A DNA stretch of 64,000 nucleotides, from contig JAHJUE010000029.1 in NCBI GenBank assembly GCA_018829205.1, positions 62,001-126,000 of the forward strand, in the 5' to 3' direction. Shown here in pieces: positions 54,497 through 59,366 of the stretch; the stretch's first letter is position 1; every line of letters begins with the position of its first letter. A model generated the notes under the pieces. It was not told the origin of the DNA. It did not search any database and saw only the letters and a program-made list of their open reading frames with translations. The position numbers and the translations under genes are program-made. The DNA is from Bacteroidota bacterium (GTDB taxonomy: Bacteria; Bacteroidota; Ignavibacteria; Ignavibacteriales; Melioribacteraceae).

Positions 54497-56524
54497 ATGA
54501 ACTTTCAAAGTATAAAATCATCAATATTAAAAAAAACTTCTATAAGTGTTATTGTTGCCTTAGTTTCTAGTTTTGGACTCTCATTAATAATACTTCTCTA
54601 TTTAACCGAATCAGCAAGCATAGAAAATAAAAAAAATGAACTGAAAGAATTTTCAATCTTAATGAGTGAATCGATTAGTTTCGCTATGTCCGAAGGAACT
54701 ACAGAAGTTGAACCGTTTATCGAAAGAGCTTCAAAAATTCCCAATATCATTGATCTAAGAATTATTCCTTCGGACAAAATTTCCGAAGGAAATGAAACCG
54801 AAATGGATAAGGATGAAAAGAGAGTTCTAAATAATTCCGAATCCGTTTACTTAAACGAAGATTATAATAATACAACAGTATTTAGATTAATTGAACCGAT
54901 AATGGCAGATAAATCATGCACAAGCTGTCATGATGCAAACGAAGGAGATGTATTAGCTACAATGAGCATTAGGTATTCAATGGTTGATACTTTCGGGAAT
55001 ATATCGGTACAACGATATACAGCTGCAATACTTGTTTTTCTTAGTACCGCACTGGTAATATTTATTATTATATATATTATTAAAAGCAAAATATTGTCGG
55101 ATCTTTTTAATTCAATAAATTTTATTGAACAGCTGGCAACAGGTGATGTAACAAATAAACTTGAAGTAAAAAGAACCGATGAAATCGGCAAACTTGTTAA
55201 CTCATTGATGAAATTAAAAGATAACAGAAAAACTCAGGCTGAAATTGTATGTAGAATGGCTGAAGGTAATTTAGACGTTAATGTAAGTATTCTATCTGAT
55301 AAAGATGTTCTCGGTAATTCAATTTTTACAATAAAAGAAAGTCTAAGTTCTCTTTCGGATGATATGATAATGCTTTCAAAAGCAGCTAAAGAAGGAAGAT
55401 TAAATTTACGAGCCGACTCCGACAAACATCGGGGAATTTATAAAGAAATTGTGTCGGGATTCAATGATACATTCGGAAGTCTTACCGAGCCTATAAATGA
55501 AGGTGCCGATGTACTAGGACAAATGGCAGATGGTAATCTTACGGTTAGAATGCAAGGCAGATATTTAGGAGATCATCAATTAATTAAAAACAGTGTAAAC
55601 AAAGTAGCCGATTCATTTAACAATATTTTAAGTGAAGTTTATTCTTCGGTAGAAATCACAAGAAATTCATCTCAGCAGATTTCTAAATCTGCCGAACATA
55701 TTGCAGCAGGTGCAATTCAGCAAAGCGAACAAACGACAGATATTGCAGGCGCGGTTGAAGAAATGGCAAAAACTATTATTGAAACTGCGGGCAATACAAT
55801 TAATGCATCTGATTCAGCGAGAGATGCCGGCGGACAAGCTAAGACCGGGGTTGAAAAAGTTCTTAAATCAAAAGAAGGCATGCAGAAGATTGTTGAATCA
55901 GCAAAAAATACGGAATCTATTATTTCTTCATTAGCTAATAAAACAGGTCAAATTGGTGAAATAACACAGGTAATTAATGAGATAGCGGATCAGACTAATT
56001 TGCTGGCATTAAACGCTGCAATTGAGGCCGCAAGAGCAGGAGAACACGGAAGAGGATTTGCCGTGGTAGCGGATGAAGTAAGAAAATTGGCAGAAAGAAC
56101 ATCAAAAGCTACAAAAGAAATTGCAGATACAATTACGTCAATTCAAAAAGAAGCTATTGACGCTAATGAATCGGTTCGTGAAGCAGGAGAATCCGTAAAG
56201 TCCGGCATGGAAATGAATGAAGAACTAGCCTCCTCTTTAAGAAATATTTTAGACAGCAGCGAAGGAGTAATAAGTCAAATTGAAATAGTAGCCGCGGCAA
56301 GCGAGCAGCAATCAACAACTGCAGAAGAAATAAGCAGAAATCTTGAGTCTATTACAAATGTAACAAACAATACCACCGCTGGAATTCAGGAAGTTGCAAG
56401 ATCTTCAGAAGAACTTCACATGCAGACTGAACATTTGCTGCAATTAGTTATGAACTTTAAACTTACAAACAACCTATCAAAAATAAATTCATCCGGTAAA
56501 CAAAGGGTGTTATTTAATAACTAA
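54497..56524 (+). CDS. Methyl-accepting chemotaxis protein with haem-binding sensor
   Basis: The 675-residue chemoreceptor has a first membrane helix (about 18-37), a periplasmic domain (about 38-172), a second helix (about 174-197), HAMP and further HAMP-like linkers (about 198-375), and an MCP signalling domain with the hairpin tip [29 protein letters not shown]. The periplasmic domain carries C141-TS-C-H145, a c-type haem attachment motif, as in redox-sensing chemoreceptors of Geobacter. It would sense oxygen, redox state or gaseous ligands. No other che genes are in the window. Confidence 0.92.
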
Positions 56525-56537
56525 TTAAAATTGTTTG

Positions 56538-57269
56538 CTAATCAACACTTATTTTTTCTTTTTTGAAAAAATAAGTGTGTTTTGTGCTGTCAAAAGGAAT
56601 AATTATTTTTAAGTATTCCGCATCACGAGACGCGGGAATAAATACGAGTCCGCCTATATCGTCCTGAGAATTAAGCTGAATTTTTGGAAGTACATCATAT
56701 TCCCACATACTTTTCTGAGATTTTAAATAATCAACATCCGCAGAATAATCAATTTCTTCTATTACCTGTTTTTCGGCGAAAATTGCGGCGTTTTCAAAAA
56801 CTTCAGCAACATCATTTTTGTTATTGTTTGATAAATCCACGGCGGTATTAATAAGCGCGAAAATAAAATTAAATCCTGTTGAAATCGCATGCTCAGTTTT
56901 ACGGTTATTAATATTTTCTTCCAGTTCTCCAATCATTAAGGCCGGATCTATAGCATAAAAAGTATTTTTTTTAGGAATTAGTTTTTTGTTTTCATCGAAA
57001 GCGATCATTTTAATTTCGGCTGGGTCAATATTAATTTTTTCATCGGACTTGTTAAAAACAAACAGGTAAAAAATGTATTTTTCGTTGAATTCATCAACGA
57101 ATTCAATATTTGAATACACCAATTCATCTTCTAGGAAAGCTATTTCTGTTCCATCCTCAGTATCTGTTTTTTCCTTATCCGGCGCTAAAGTAAATAATTC
57201 GGAACTTGAACAGCCTGCTGAAAGGAGAATCGGAAATAAAATAATTATAAATTTTAAAAATAAACGCAT
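56538..57269 (-). CDS. Lipoprotein of unknown function
   Basis: The 243-residue protein has a lipoprotein signal with Cys20 in LLSAGCSSS. The body starts with two beta strands (VYSNIEFVDEF, KYIFYLFVFNKSDEKINIDP), which suggest an immunoglobulin-like fold. A helical middle and a strand-rich end (EYLKIIIPFDSTKHTYFF) follow. I recognise no family. A perfect 14-bp hairpin (56545-56578) lies within its last codons and may terminate the convergent chemoreceptor transcript. Confidence 0.7.
   Translation of the reverse strand: MRLFLKFIIILFPILLSAGCSSSELFTLAPDKEKTDTEDGTEIAFLEDELVYSNIEFVDEFNEKYIFYLFVFNKSDEKINIDPAEIKMIAFDENKKLIPKKNTFYAIDPALMIGELEENINNRKTEHAISTGFNFIFALINTAVDLSNNNKNDVAEVFENAAIFAEKQVIEEIDYSADVDYLKSQKSMWEYDVLPKIQLNSQDDIGGLVFIPASRDAEYLKIIIPFDSTKHTYFFKKEKISVD
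56545..56578 (+). terminator. Hairpin in the overlap of convergent gene ends
   Basis: ACACTTATTTTTTC and GAAAAAATAAGTGT form a perfect 14-bp stem with a six-T loop, 20 bp after the chemoreceptor stop. It is made of coding sequence of the convergent lipoprotein gene. Confidence 0.6.
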
Positions 57270-57454
57270 TGTTCTCTCATTATTTATTAAACTATCAGGA
57301 ATATCATCAAAAAAAATGCCGATTTAAATCGACGAAAATATAATTCATTCAAACAATCAAATTAAATTTGTGTTCTAAAAAACAAATAGATGTATTTATT
57401 TTTATACAGGAAAGAAAATCATCAATTGAAATGTTATATTAGGAAATCAATTTT

Positions 57455-57510
57455 GCCCCCGTAGCTCAGTGGATACCCGCCTGCCGGCGAGGCAGGGAGC
57501 AGTGGTTTCC
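57455..57510 (+). pseudogene. Truncated tRNA-Arg(CCG) copy split by a palindromic insert
   Basis: Bases 57455-57475 and 57497-57510 match positions 1-21 and 22-35 of the intact tRNA at 57803, without a mismatch. Between them lies a 21-nt GC-rich insert (57476-57496) containing the CTGCCGGC hairpin, placed at the end of the D loop. The copy stops inside the anticodon, after TTCC. It cannot fold as a tRNA. Confidence 0.85.
57476..57496. repeat. 21-nt CTGCCGGC-type insert inside the broken tRNA
   Basis: The core CCTGCCGGCGAGGCAGG is a hairpin. It interrupts the tRNA copy with no loss of tRNA bases. A relative is at 4387-4402. The insertion ends may shift by one or two bases because of shared G residues. 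Confidence 0.7.
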
Positions 57511-57563
57511 AGACATTGTTCAAGTGGCTAAATGTGCAAATTAGTGAGAGAAAATATTTTTGC

Positions 57564-57812
57564 ATGACACATTTTGTATACATTTTATATAGTAAAAAAT
57601 ATAATAAATATTATACAGGAACTTCAAAAGAATTAGAAAGAAGACTCAAAGAACATAATTCCGGAAAAACTAAATCAACAAAACCTTATAAACCTTGGGA
57701 AATTATTTATATTGAAGAATATAATTCTGAAGCGGAAGCTTATAAAAGAGAAAAATATTTAAAAAGTGGAAGCGGACGTGAGTTCATAAAAGGTTTAATT
57801 TTGCCCCCGTAG
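57564..57812 (+). CDS. Small GIY-YIG nuclease between tRNA copies
   Basis: The 82-residue product is a minimal GIY-YIG domain: VYILYSKKYNKYYTGTSKEL with the paired Tyr motif (YIL and YYTG in place of GIY-YIG), then RRLKEHNSGK with the catalytic Arg, and the conserved Glu in EAEAYKREKYLKSGSGREF. I choose ATG 57564; the frame is open from a TTG at 57516, but family members start with short leaders. Its last codons and its TAG stop lie in the tRNA-Arg gene, so gene and tRNA overlap by 10 bp. It is flanked by direct repeats of the tRNA 5' half. Confidence 0.85.
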   Translation: MTHFVYILYSKKYNKYYTGTSKELERRLKEHNSGKTKSTKPYKPWEIIYIEEYNSEAEAYKREKYLKSGSGREFIKGLILPP

Positions 57813-57874
57813 CTCAGTGGATAGAGCAGTGGTTTCCGAAGCCATGTGCGCAGGTTCAATTCCCGCCGGGGGTA
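57803..57874 (+). tRNA. tRNA-Arg (CCG)
   Basis: The full cloverleaf can be drawn: acceptor GCCCCCG with CGGGGGT, D stem GCTC/GAGC, anticodon stem GTGGT/GCCAT around TTCCGAA (anticodon CCG), and T stem GCAGG/CCCGC with loop TTCAATT. CCA is not encoded. There is a G:U pair at the acceptor end and one A:C mismatch in the T stem. The 5' end overlaps the GIY-YIG stop codon. Terminator-like hairpin follows at 57891. Confidence 0.88.
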
Positions 57875-57890
57875 CAAGTTTTATTTATAT

Positions 57891-57910
57891 AAGGGCTTTT
57901 CTAAGCCCTT
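57891..57910. terminator. Hairpin after tRNA-Arg
   Basis: AAGGGCTT and AAGCCCTT pair perfectly around TTCT, 16 bp after the tRNA and 12 bp before the stop of the convergent acidic-protein gene. It probably ends both transcripts. Confidence 0.75.
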
Positions 57911-57922
57911 TAAAAGCATAAA

Positions 57923-58426
57923 TTAAAACCCGTCATCCACAAAATATTCGTCATCATCTTCAAAGATATCGTCAGTATTTAAGTCAATATCTTTTATATT
58001 ATCGTCAAAGCCGTCCACTTCATCATTGTCTTTTTCTGCAGCGGCTTCGCTGATATAATAACTTTCACCCTCATAATAATTTGTTGTGTGGGAACTTGAA
58101 TCAAGTTTATCCAATACCAGGTTTAATATTTCTTCCTTTAAGTCAAGTTTAACCTTATCCGCATTCAGTTCGCTTCTTTCGGCAAAGTTTTCCGATGCGG
58201 CTTCGGATTGCTCCCATAAATCAAATAATTTTTCGTCATTTAATTTATCTAAATGAATGGTAATTTGTTCTTTTGCGGAATTAAGAAGTTGTTCATCCCA
58301 AACTCCTTCTTCTTCGGCCTGTTCGGATATTAATTGCCAGTAAGTTTTTTTTGATTTTCCGGGAGCCTGTAATTTTTTGAAAATTTTTTCAATTTCTCCC
58401 GCGGTTTTTGTTAATGATGCTGCCAC
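57923..58426 (-). CDS. Acidic-tailed protein of unknown function
   Basis: The 167-residue soluble protein has a helical N-terminal two thirds (LTKTAGEIEKIFKKLQ, YWQLISEQAEEEGVWDEQ, EEILNLVLDKLDS) and a very acidic, probably disordered tail (from about 130, DDNIKDIDLNTDDIFEDDDEYF). There is no signal or membrane segment. Such tails are found in binding partners of basic proteins or nucleic-acid-binding factors, but I recognise no family. The upstream 361 bp are AT-rich and gene-free. Confidence 0.75.
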   Translation of the reverse strand: MAASLTKTAGEIEKIFKKLQAPGKSKKTYWQLISEQAEEEGVWDEQLLNSAKEQITIHLDKLNDEKLFDLWEQSEAASENFAERSELNADKVKLDLKEEILNLVLDKLDSSSHTTNYYEGESYYISEAAAEKDNDEVDGFDDNIKDIDLNTDDIFEDDDEYFVDDGF

Positions 58427-58787
58427 TTTCTTCCTCTAAAAAAATATTATTTACAAACAGAAAAAAATAGTAAAATGGTTTTAAAAGCAACAATAATTTT
58501 TATTAAAAATTTTTTTAAAATTTGATTGTTACAATTAATGATATTATAATAATCGAAATTTATTCTTATTTATTAAATTCTAATTTCCGTAAATATTTTT
58601 CTCTTCTTTTATCCATAATCTAATAAAATGACTTACAAATATTTATTAATACAGATATCGGACAATCGCTCCCGTTAATAAATTTATATTCTTAAGAAGC
58701 AATTAACAGGTTAAAGAATATTATTAAATATTATTACAACCTTTTGTATGCCTCCTTAGTCTAACACATTGAACATATAAAATAAAT
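58427..58787. other. 361-bp AT-rich gap between divergent genes
   Basis: This region separates the acidic-protein gene from the sigma-factor operon and must hold both promoters. It is very AT-rich with many A and T runs. I see no tRNA, repeat family or strong inverted repeat. The sigma gene ATG has no purine-rich ribosome-binding site, only an A-rich leader, as is common in Bacteroidota. Confidence 0.5.
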
Positions 58788-59366
58788 ATGCAAGACGATA
58801 ATACACTAATTCAAAAAGCAAGGTCGGGCGACACGGGAGCCTTTGAGCAGCTGTTATACAGGTATGACAGGCATGTTTTAAACATCGCATATTCATTTAG
58901 AAATAGTGAGGATGACGCTAAGGATATTTATCAGGAAGTTTTTATAAGAGTCTTCAGAGGATTAAAAAACTTTCAATTCAGAAGCGAGTTTTCGACATGG
59001 CTTTATAGAATTACAACAAACGTATGTATTTCGTATAAAAGGAAAGAAAACCGTCATAATTTAGATTCATTGGATGAATCTGTTTTTGAAGACGAAGGAG
59101 CTTCGGTAAAACTCTCGGATTTAATTGAGGGGGACAGCTCTGCCGATAATTTGGCAATCAGTTCTGATTATTCAAAATATATAAACAGCGCAATAGAAAC
59201 GCTTCCGGCTCAGCAGAAAATGGCGTTCACGTTAAAATATTATCAAGGTTATAAAGTAAAAGAAATTGCGGATATGATGCAGTGCGCCGAAGGCACAATA
59301 AAAAGATATTTGTTTAACGCAGTAAATAAATTGCGGGAAGAATTAAAAGGAATAATTAATAATTAA
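58788..59366 (+). CDS. RNA polymerase ECF-type sigma factor
   Basis: The 192-residue protein has sigma region 2 (about 20-90, LLYRYDRHVLNIAYSFRNSEDDAKDIYQEVFIRVFRG style with DIYQEVFIRVF) and region 4 (about 130-188, LPAQQKMAFTLKYYQGYKVKEIADMM then GTIKRYLFNAVNKLR), and lacks regions 1.1 and 3. It should direct RNA polymerase to a small regulon. The anti-sigma-like gene follows 4 bp after the stop, then two DUF4097 genes, so the target is probably the cell envelope or this operon itself. Confidence 0.93.
   Translation: MQDDNTLIQKARSGDTGAFEQLLYRYDRHVLNIAYSFRNSEDDAKDIYQEVFIRVFRGLKNFQFRSEFSTWLYRITTNVCISYKRKENRHNLDSLDESVFEDEGASVKLSDLIEGDSSADNLAISSDYSKYINSAIETLPAQQKMAFTLKYYQGYKVKEIADMMQCAEGTIKRYLFNAVNKLREELKGIINN

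Follow-up and report, generated by a model that had tools for sequence, protein, structure and literature searches.

Free-standing GIY-YIG homing nucleases are already known, including a phage-encoded one that acts at tRNA genes. SegB from phages T4 and T6 is a free-standing GIY-YIG homing endonuclease that cuts inside tRNA genes (PMC13096335; PMC2988022), and its nuclease activity is required for the tandem amplification, by recombination, of tRNA-Tyr together with its own gene (PMC13096335). Its cleavage motif, RAWTSGAAC, which reads GTTCSAWTY on the other strand, corresponds to the tRNA T-loop (PMC13096335). Few landmarks of a genome are as conserved as tRNA genes, which are also known docking sites of large elements: prophages, ICEs and satellites that restore the 3' end of the tRNA occupy the gene and keep it functional through a partial duplicate, while group I introns bearing a GIY-YIG endonuclease reside in tRNA anticodon loops. 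Ssn from Neisseria is a site-specific single-strand GIY-YIG nuclease, which the family described here resembles in its small size and in the hairpin-like repeats that go with it; Ssn is not known to be associated with tRNA relics or isotype tracking.

The locus under study lies in a window of 64 000 nucleotides, the whole stretch of DNA that was analysed (positions 62001-126000 of contig C24), from a 4.59 Mb genome of the order Ignavibacteriales. The sole tRNA in the window is an intact tRNA-Arg(CCG) at 57803..57875 on the + strand (ARAGORN; Rfam RF00005, 61.8 bits). As the first-pass annotation had recognized, its 5' half is present twice in direct orientation with identical bases: bases 1-21 recur at 57455..57475 (+) as an exact match to 57803-57823, and bases 22-35 recur, again exactly, at 57497..57510 (+). 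The description of this first copy as a 5' half ending inside the anticodon was accurate as regards its end, since the CCG anticodon comprises bases 34-36 and the copy stops at base 35, but had overlooked a 21-bp palindromic hairpin insert, CCCGCCTGCCGGCGAGGCAGG (57476..57496, +), which splits its D-loop at GGATA^GAGC and was recognized by split alignment and from the palindromes of relatives. When bases 1-21 were searched with at most two mismatches, two matches were found in the window, against none expected from shuffles.

The gene between the two copies was correctly read as that of a GIY-YIG nuclease (57564..57812, +; Pfam PF01541, E 8.7e-18), which is 82 amino acids long from its ATG, or 98 from an upstream TTG at 57516. 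Its frame ends within the intact tRNA at a TAG (57810-57812) formed by tRNA bases 8-10, also as proposed, although this is particular to the window copy: in the closest relative (L048) the nuclease has its own TAA ahead of the tRNA, and a tRNA-supplied stop was rejected as a general trait. Besides the nuclease, the unit is overlapped only by antisense open reading frames of 45 and 49 amino acids. No integrase was found in the unit, Pfam returning GIY-YIG alone for the nuclease gene, and no group I intron was detected by Rfam in 56500-59000, ruling out such an intron as the identity of the unit. The nuclease is a stand-alone reading frame outside introns and inteins. In contrast to group I introns, which likewise bring a GIY-YIG gene into a tRNA gene, a complete tRNA is kept alongside instead of being spliced, and, in contrast to integrative elements, the nuclease is the only gene of a unit of about 290-450 bp.

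The predicted protein scores 64.8 bits against PF01541 (cut-off 22.6), and Tyr6, Tyr17, Gly19, Arg27, His31, Asn32 and Glu63 are invariant across nine relatives; on the strength of this domain and these conserved catalytic residues, it can be assigned to the GIY-YIG superfamily. Comparison of its profile with the PDB retrieved 1YWL (1.8e-11) and 1ZG2 (6.9e-10), with nearly the whole profile covered. These structures, deposited as hypothetical proteins, represent the UPF0213/YhbQ-like single-domain GIY-YIG proteins, which belong to the same sequence family and are of equal length, and for which no connection to tRNA genes was found in the literature searched. A phage origin was rejected: IMG/VR held no relatives of the nuclease, and tblastn against annotated phages gave weak matches only. 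As regards a homology to SegB that extends beyond the domain they have in common, no PHROGs family was matched at E 1e-3, and none of the phage matches listed was in a T4-like coliphage. A role in anti-phage defence was likewise discarded, the marginal PADLOC match to UzuA (31 residues, 3.4e-4) being taken to reflect a shared domain.

A search of 164 genomes of the order detected the nuclease in 148. Among 90 loci examined, which were chosen as those most similar to the window protein and so do not form a random sample, a tRNA lies within 250 bp at 82 (median distance 23 bp), compared with a chance expectation of about 1% derived from 42 tRNAs per 3.5 Mb, and all 82 nucleases are encoded on the strand of the tRNA. 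The family is thus linked to tRNA genes elsewhere too; a lack of such linkage is what the first-pass annotation had named as refuting its proposal. One of the eight remaining loci adjoins a tmRNA and another a tRNA cut by the contig end; at four more, L054, L111, L126 and L127, the contig stops within 1 kb on one side. A cross-phylum search with a hand-made consensus protein as query yielded 80 loci in named genomes, of which 55 have a tRNA within 250 bp, in every case (55/55) on the same strand, and three further loci lie near tmRNA. The hosts include Patescibacteria phyla, Bacteroidota (with arrays in Flavobacterium), Ignavibacteriota, Omnitrophota and Chlorobiota.

Two mirror-image forms are found in the order, with the broken copy and the intact tRNA on opposite sides of the nuclease reading frame. 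At 30 loci, those of the 5' form, a broken 5' half is followed by the nuclease and the intact tRNA; these supply the further tRNA/GIY-YIG pairs with partial 5' duplicates that the first-pass annotation had suggested looking for. The other 52 loci are of the 3' form, which begins with the intact tRNA and continues with the nuclease and a broken 3' part. The target tRNAs include those for Ser, Asn, Arg, Leu, Cys, Pro, Glu, Gly and Ala. On their outer side, 31 of 32 broken copies of the 5' form stop at the 5' terminus of the tRNA itself, and 38 of 51 broken copies of the 3' form stop within the 3' acceptor strand; the inner ends of the 5' form cluster in the anticodon arm, 13 of 32 falling in the anticodon loop itself. 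With an alignment method that leans somewhat towards own-host matches, broken copies matched the tRNA of their own host in 1662 of 1751 informative comparisons, that of another host in 30 and neither in 59.

At 33 of the 90 loci there are at least two nuclease matches, with a maximum of six (L080, at a spacing of 450 bp). A clear example is L027 from G034, a single-contig genome of the same order, in which three tandem units of about 350 bp, each consisting of a half tRNA-Arg(CCT) with a 61-62-nt D-loop hairpin (GGATA^GAGC) followed by a GIY-YIG gene, precede the intact tRNA. Arrays are also present in the single-contig genomes G023, G036 and G008.

Occupied and empty orthologous sites, the same tRNA with and without the nuclease that the first-pass annotation had suggested searching for, were found in three genera (g24, g34 and g36); the window's own genus has no second species among the genomes searched. 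In g24, three genomes (G074, G075 and G077) have tRNA-Ser(tga) without any interruption, while the site is filled by three units in G023 and by one in G073; the upstream flank, common to both groups, leads to the intact tRNA in the empty genomes and to the broken copy in the filled ones. A further genome, G076, carries a hairpin-bearing relic without an open reading frame. In g34, the site is occupied in G034 and G078 but not in G081; no convincing alignment was obtained between the downstream flank of the 3' form and the empty G081, and flank continuity for this form was therefore taken from g36, in which tRNA-Asn is followed by the nuclease and a relic in G036 and by a terminator in G069 and G070, with the same gene downstream. 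In all three genera, insertion inside the tRNA and right beside it would leave flanks that look alike. Relatives do not always carry both copies; that they always would, with no empty site, had been named in the first-pass annotation as refuting its proposal. The idea that the tRNA is altered where the hairpin sits so as to protect itself, suggested by T16 in the filled and C16 in the empty tRNA-Ser(tga) of g24, was rejected as inconsistent across the order.

On a tree of 108 nucleases, which, being built from 86 columns of an 82-amino-acid protein, contains many weak forks, the tRNA isotype changes 13 times, compared with 51.0 times when shuffled (none of 200 shuffles being as low). With one row per genome and isotype, the isotype again requires 13 changes against 38.9 shuffled, while the host family requires 22 against 26.1 (lowest shuffle 21). 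As judged from this tree, nuclease clades follow the tRNA isotype and hardly the host family.

Taken with the empty sites, this tracking gives good support to the earlier proposal of a minimal tRNA-targeting mobile unit that leaves its tRNA functional, and the window locus is likely to be one copy of a widespread group of selfish, free-standing, homing-type GIY-YIG cassettes specialized on tRNA genes. We infer that the nuclease would cut or nick, within a loop region, a tRNA gene that is of its own isotype and still uninterrupted, and that repair from a cassette-carrying copy would bring in the nuclease gene along with some tRNA sequence. The outcome would be one functional tRNA, kept or regenerated, and one broken half left behind, a 5' half upstream or a 3' half downstream according to the form, and tandem arrays would arise when the intact tRNA is cut repeatedly. 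The presence of both occupied and empty target alleles in g24, g34 and g36 is what is expected of a free-standing homing element.

SegB is the nearest precedent, with its GIY-YIG gene beside tRNA genes and its tandem amplification, and the window family is alike in its arrays and its tRNA neighbourhood. Moreover, the insertion point of the 3' form in the T-loop, GTTC^GAATC, is contained in the SegB motif, a match in both motif and position. SegB, however, is phage-borne and has been described in tRNA arrays without hairpin-laced half-tRNA relics, whereas the present nucleases are of about 80-100 amino acids, chromosomal, placed at single tRNA genes, isotype-tracking and found in two mirror forms. 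No description of chromosomal, isotype-tracking cassettes of about 350 bp with hairpin-laced relics and nuclease-free derivatives was found in the open-access papers searched, and what is probably a widespread selfish element living in tRNA genes has apparently gone undescribed. As a chromosomal counterpart of phage SegB, such a cassette would account for many tRNA pseudogenes and 'orphan' GIY-YIG genes, the family would offer a naturally occurring collection of nucleases that are candidates for tRNA-gene specificity, and the question of how a nuclease may target an essential gene without killing its host becomes testable.

Homing of this kind nevertheless meets with difficulties. In the occupied allele the broken copy is interrupted by hairpins and the adjacent tRNA is intact; since the latter still holds the presumed target, the occupied allele shows no evident immunity of the classical kind. 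RecA would have to work with homology arms of 20-40 bp, which are short for it, and IMG/VR offered no relative that might point to a vehicle between hosts. Simple homing, moreover, does not predict recurrent hairpins in several loops. Counted once per locus and region, 55 of 63 inserts fall in tRNA loops, against 42% of the junctions exposed (binomial p 1e-13). The D-loop is the site in 5' forms (23 cases) and the T-loop in 3' forms (19), with the anticodon loop used in some. The clustered inner ends of the 5' form would suit the cut in the anticodon loop that the first-pass annotation had expected, but with the recurrent hairpins in the D- and T-loops, and the T-loop insertion point at the SegB motif, such a cut is no more than a candidate. 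The inserts fold with a mean z of -2.8 relative to shuffles (RNA parameters) and often consist of two consecutive hairpins, such as TCCCGAAGGGA-CTCCTATGGAG. Near-identical D-loop palindromes are found in the relatives L048, L062, L076, L161, L170 and L171, and one of these palindromes, CCTGCCTGCCGGCAGGCAGG, is located in the D-loop of 5' halves from Ignavibacteria (L062, L076), Bacteroidales (L171, one base shorter), Shapirobacteria (L161) and Yanofskybacteria (L170). In the 3' tmRNA relic of L069, a double hairpin, TGCACAGCA-TCCCTTTGGGA, is placed at GTTC^GA of the T-loop. Our leading guess is that the hairpins serve either to abolish the nuclease's target within the relic or as a marker of the element's end.

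Broken copies are also found without a nuclease. When the flanks of all tRNAs found were scanned, 6 of 41 tRNAs in the window genome and 15 of 42 in G034 were flanked by broken copies, compared with none in an antisense control and 0/155 with mismatched tRNAs. Most of the G034 copies lack a nuclease, and the T-loops of those of Arg, Glu, Thr, Val and Ser(tga) bear a common hairpin pair resembling TGCAAAGCA-TCCTTCGGA. Nuclease-free tRNA-Arg(CCG) relics were likewise observed in G009 (L009) and G031 (L007); they comprise a 5' half whose D-arm holds a long insert, and repeated 3' parts whose T-loop contains TGCCACTGGCA. In the window genome, a degraded cassette downstream of tRNA-Met (L039, G000:C16:104597-105070) combines a relic having D- and T-loop palindromes with a GIY-YIG pseudogene containing three stops.

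These features could tentatively be accommodated by a two-part parasite of tRNA and tmRNA genes in several phyla, a possible but not the favoured reading, in which isotype-specific nucleases would be combined with hairpin modules that have been set into half-tRNA relics at the D-, anticodon and T-loops, and in which non-autonomous relics would outnumber the nuclease loci in some genomes. The nuclease would recognize stem-loops of tRNA genes, perhaps in single-stranded form, while the hairpins would have an active part in recognition, in protection or as end markers. If true, this would be a type of mobile element distinct from homing endonucleases, RAYT/REP systems and integrases.

It is unlikely, on the other hand, that the hairpin module is itself the mobile unit, with palindromes entering the loops of tRNA copies, GIY-YIG genes mobilizing them and nuclease-free halves being non-autonomous, much as RAYT transposases serve REP palindromes. 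The broken copies at 15 of the 42 G034 tRNAs, most of them nuclease-free and with one T-loop hairpin pair across isotypes, the preference of the inserts for loops and the similar hairpin pair in the T-loop of the tmRNA relic would all fit, as would the CCTGCC palindrome found within an apparent coding gene of the window genome; yet nuclease clades track isotype while hairpin sequences are common to several isotypes, and arrays repeat whole units of half tRNA and reading frame, not hairpins alone. The coding-gene case comprises two CCTGCC...GGCAGG palindromes 1.2 kb apart, apparently inside one Tex-like gene (L041, G000:C3:124754; L042, G000:C3:125924), in the manner of Rickettsia-type palindromic elements. 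The same palindrome also lies inside another dispersed repeat (CTCGACTCCGCT / CGGGATGACA) at L043, L044 and L045 (G000 C8, C19), so that palindromes are nested in repeats.

Two other small GIY-YIG genes of the window genome, at L033 (G000:C19:74908) and L034 (G000:C20:39215), are not at tRNAs but beside dispersed hairpin repeats such as GATTCCCGC...GCGGGAATGACA, an arrangement resembling that of Ssn and NTS. This abutment, and a superfamily and size class equal to those of Ssn, would suit a non-selfish, Ssn-type nuclease specific for single strands and acting on transformation DNA, the recognition hairpins of which happen to sit in tRNA relics; such a function is very unlikely, as it leaves isotype tracking, same-strand placement, relics, arrays and empty sites unexplained.

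The nuclease is under strong purifying selection, with a median dN/dS of 0.085 over 16 pairs from different loci, in some of which synonymous sites are saturated; this counts in favour of the selfish cassette. It would also be expected of a domesticated or regulatory gene serving the host, for instance by controlling tRNA gene copy number or expression, as would the position of the 5'-form reading frame between the ancestral upstream region of the tRNA and the intact tRNA, owing to which the two may share a transcript. Domestication is, however, highly improbable, given the patchy presence of the nuclease between species of one genus, the degraded copies (L039 with its stops; L150, from which the nuclease reading frame is gone) and the lack of a fixed tRNA partner within a lineage.

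A chance tandem tRNA duplication later joined by an unrelated nuclease, or an assembly artefact, can be practically discounted, and as an account of all loci it is refuted by the recurrence of the layout across phyla. Duplications are indeed frequent in the vicinity of tRNAs and several draft-genome contigs end within such arrays, but arrays are present in the four single-contig genomes, and both controls of the relic scan were empty, which speaks against an effect of base composition as well.

The favoured reading of a homing-type cassette leaves a few minor observations to be recorded. Draft contigs often end 50-400 bp from a family member (for example G058:C224, G096:C134 and G131:C207), which suggests that arrays break short-read assemblies and are under-counted. 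GIY-YIG genes of the nuclease family also adjoin tmRNA genes at L069 (1121-1808), L186, L204 and L231, and on an Omnitrophota contig (L202, 1504-2090) a family member immediately precedes a group I intron (Rfam RF00028).
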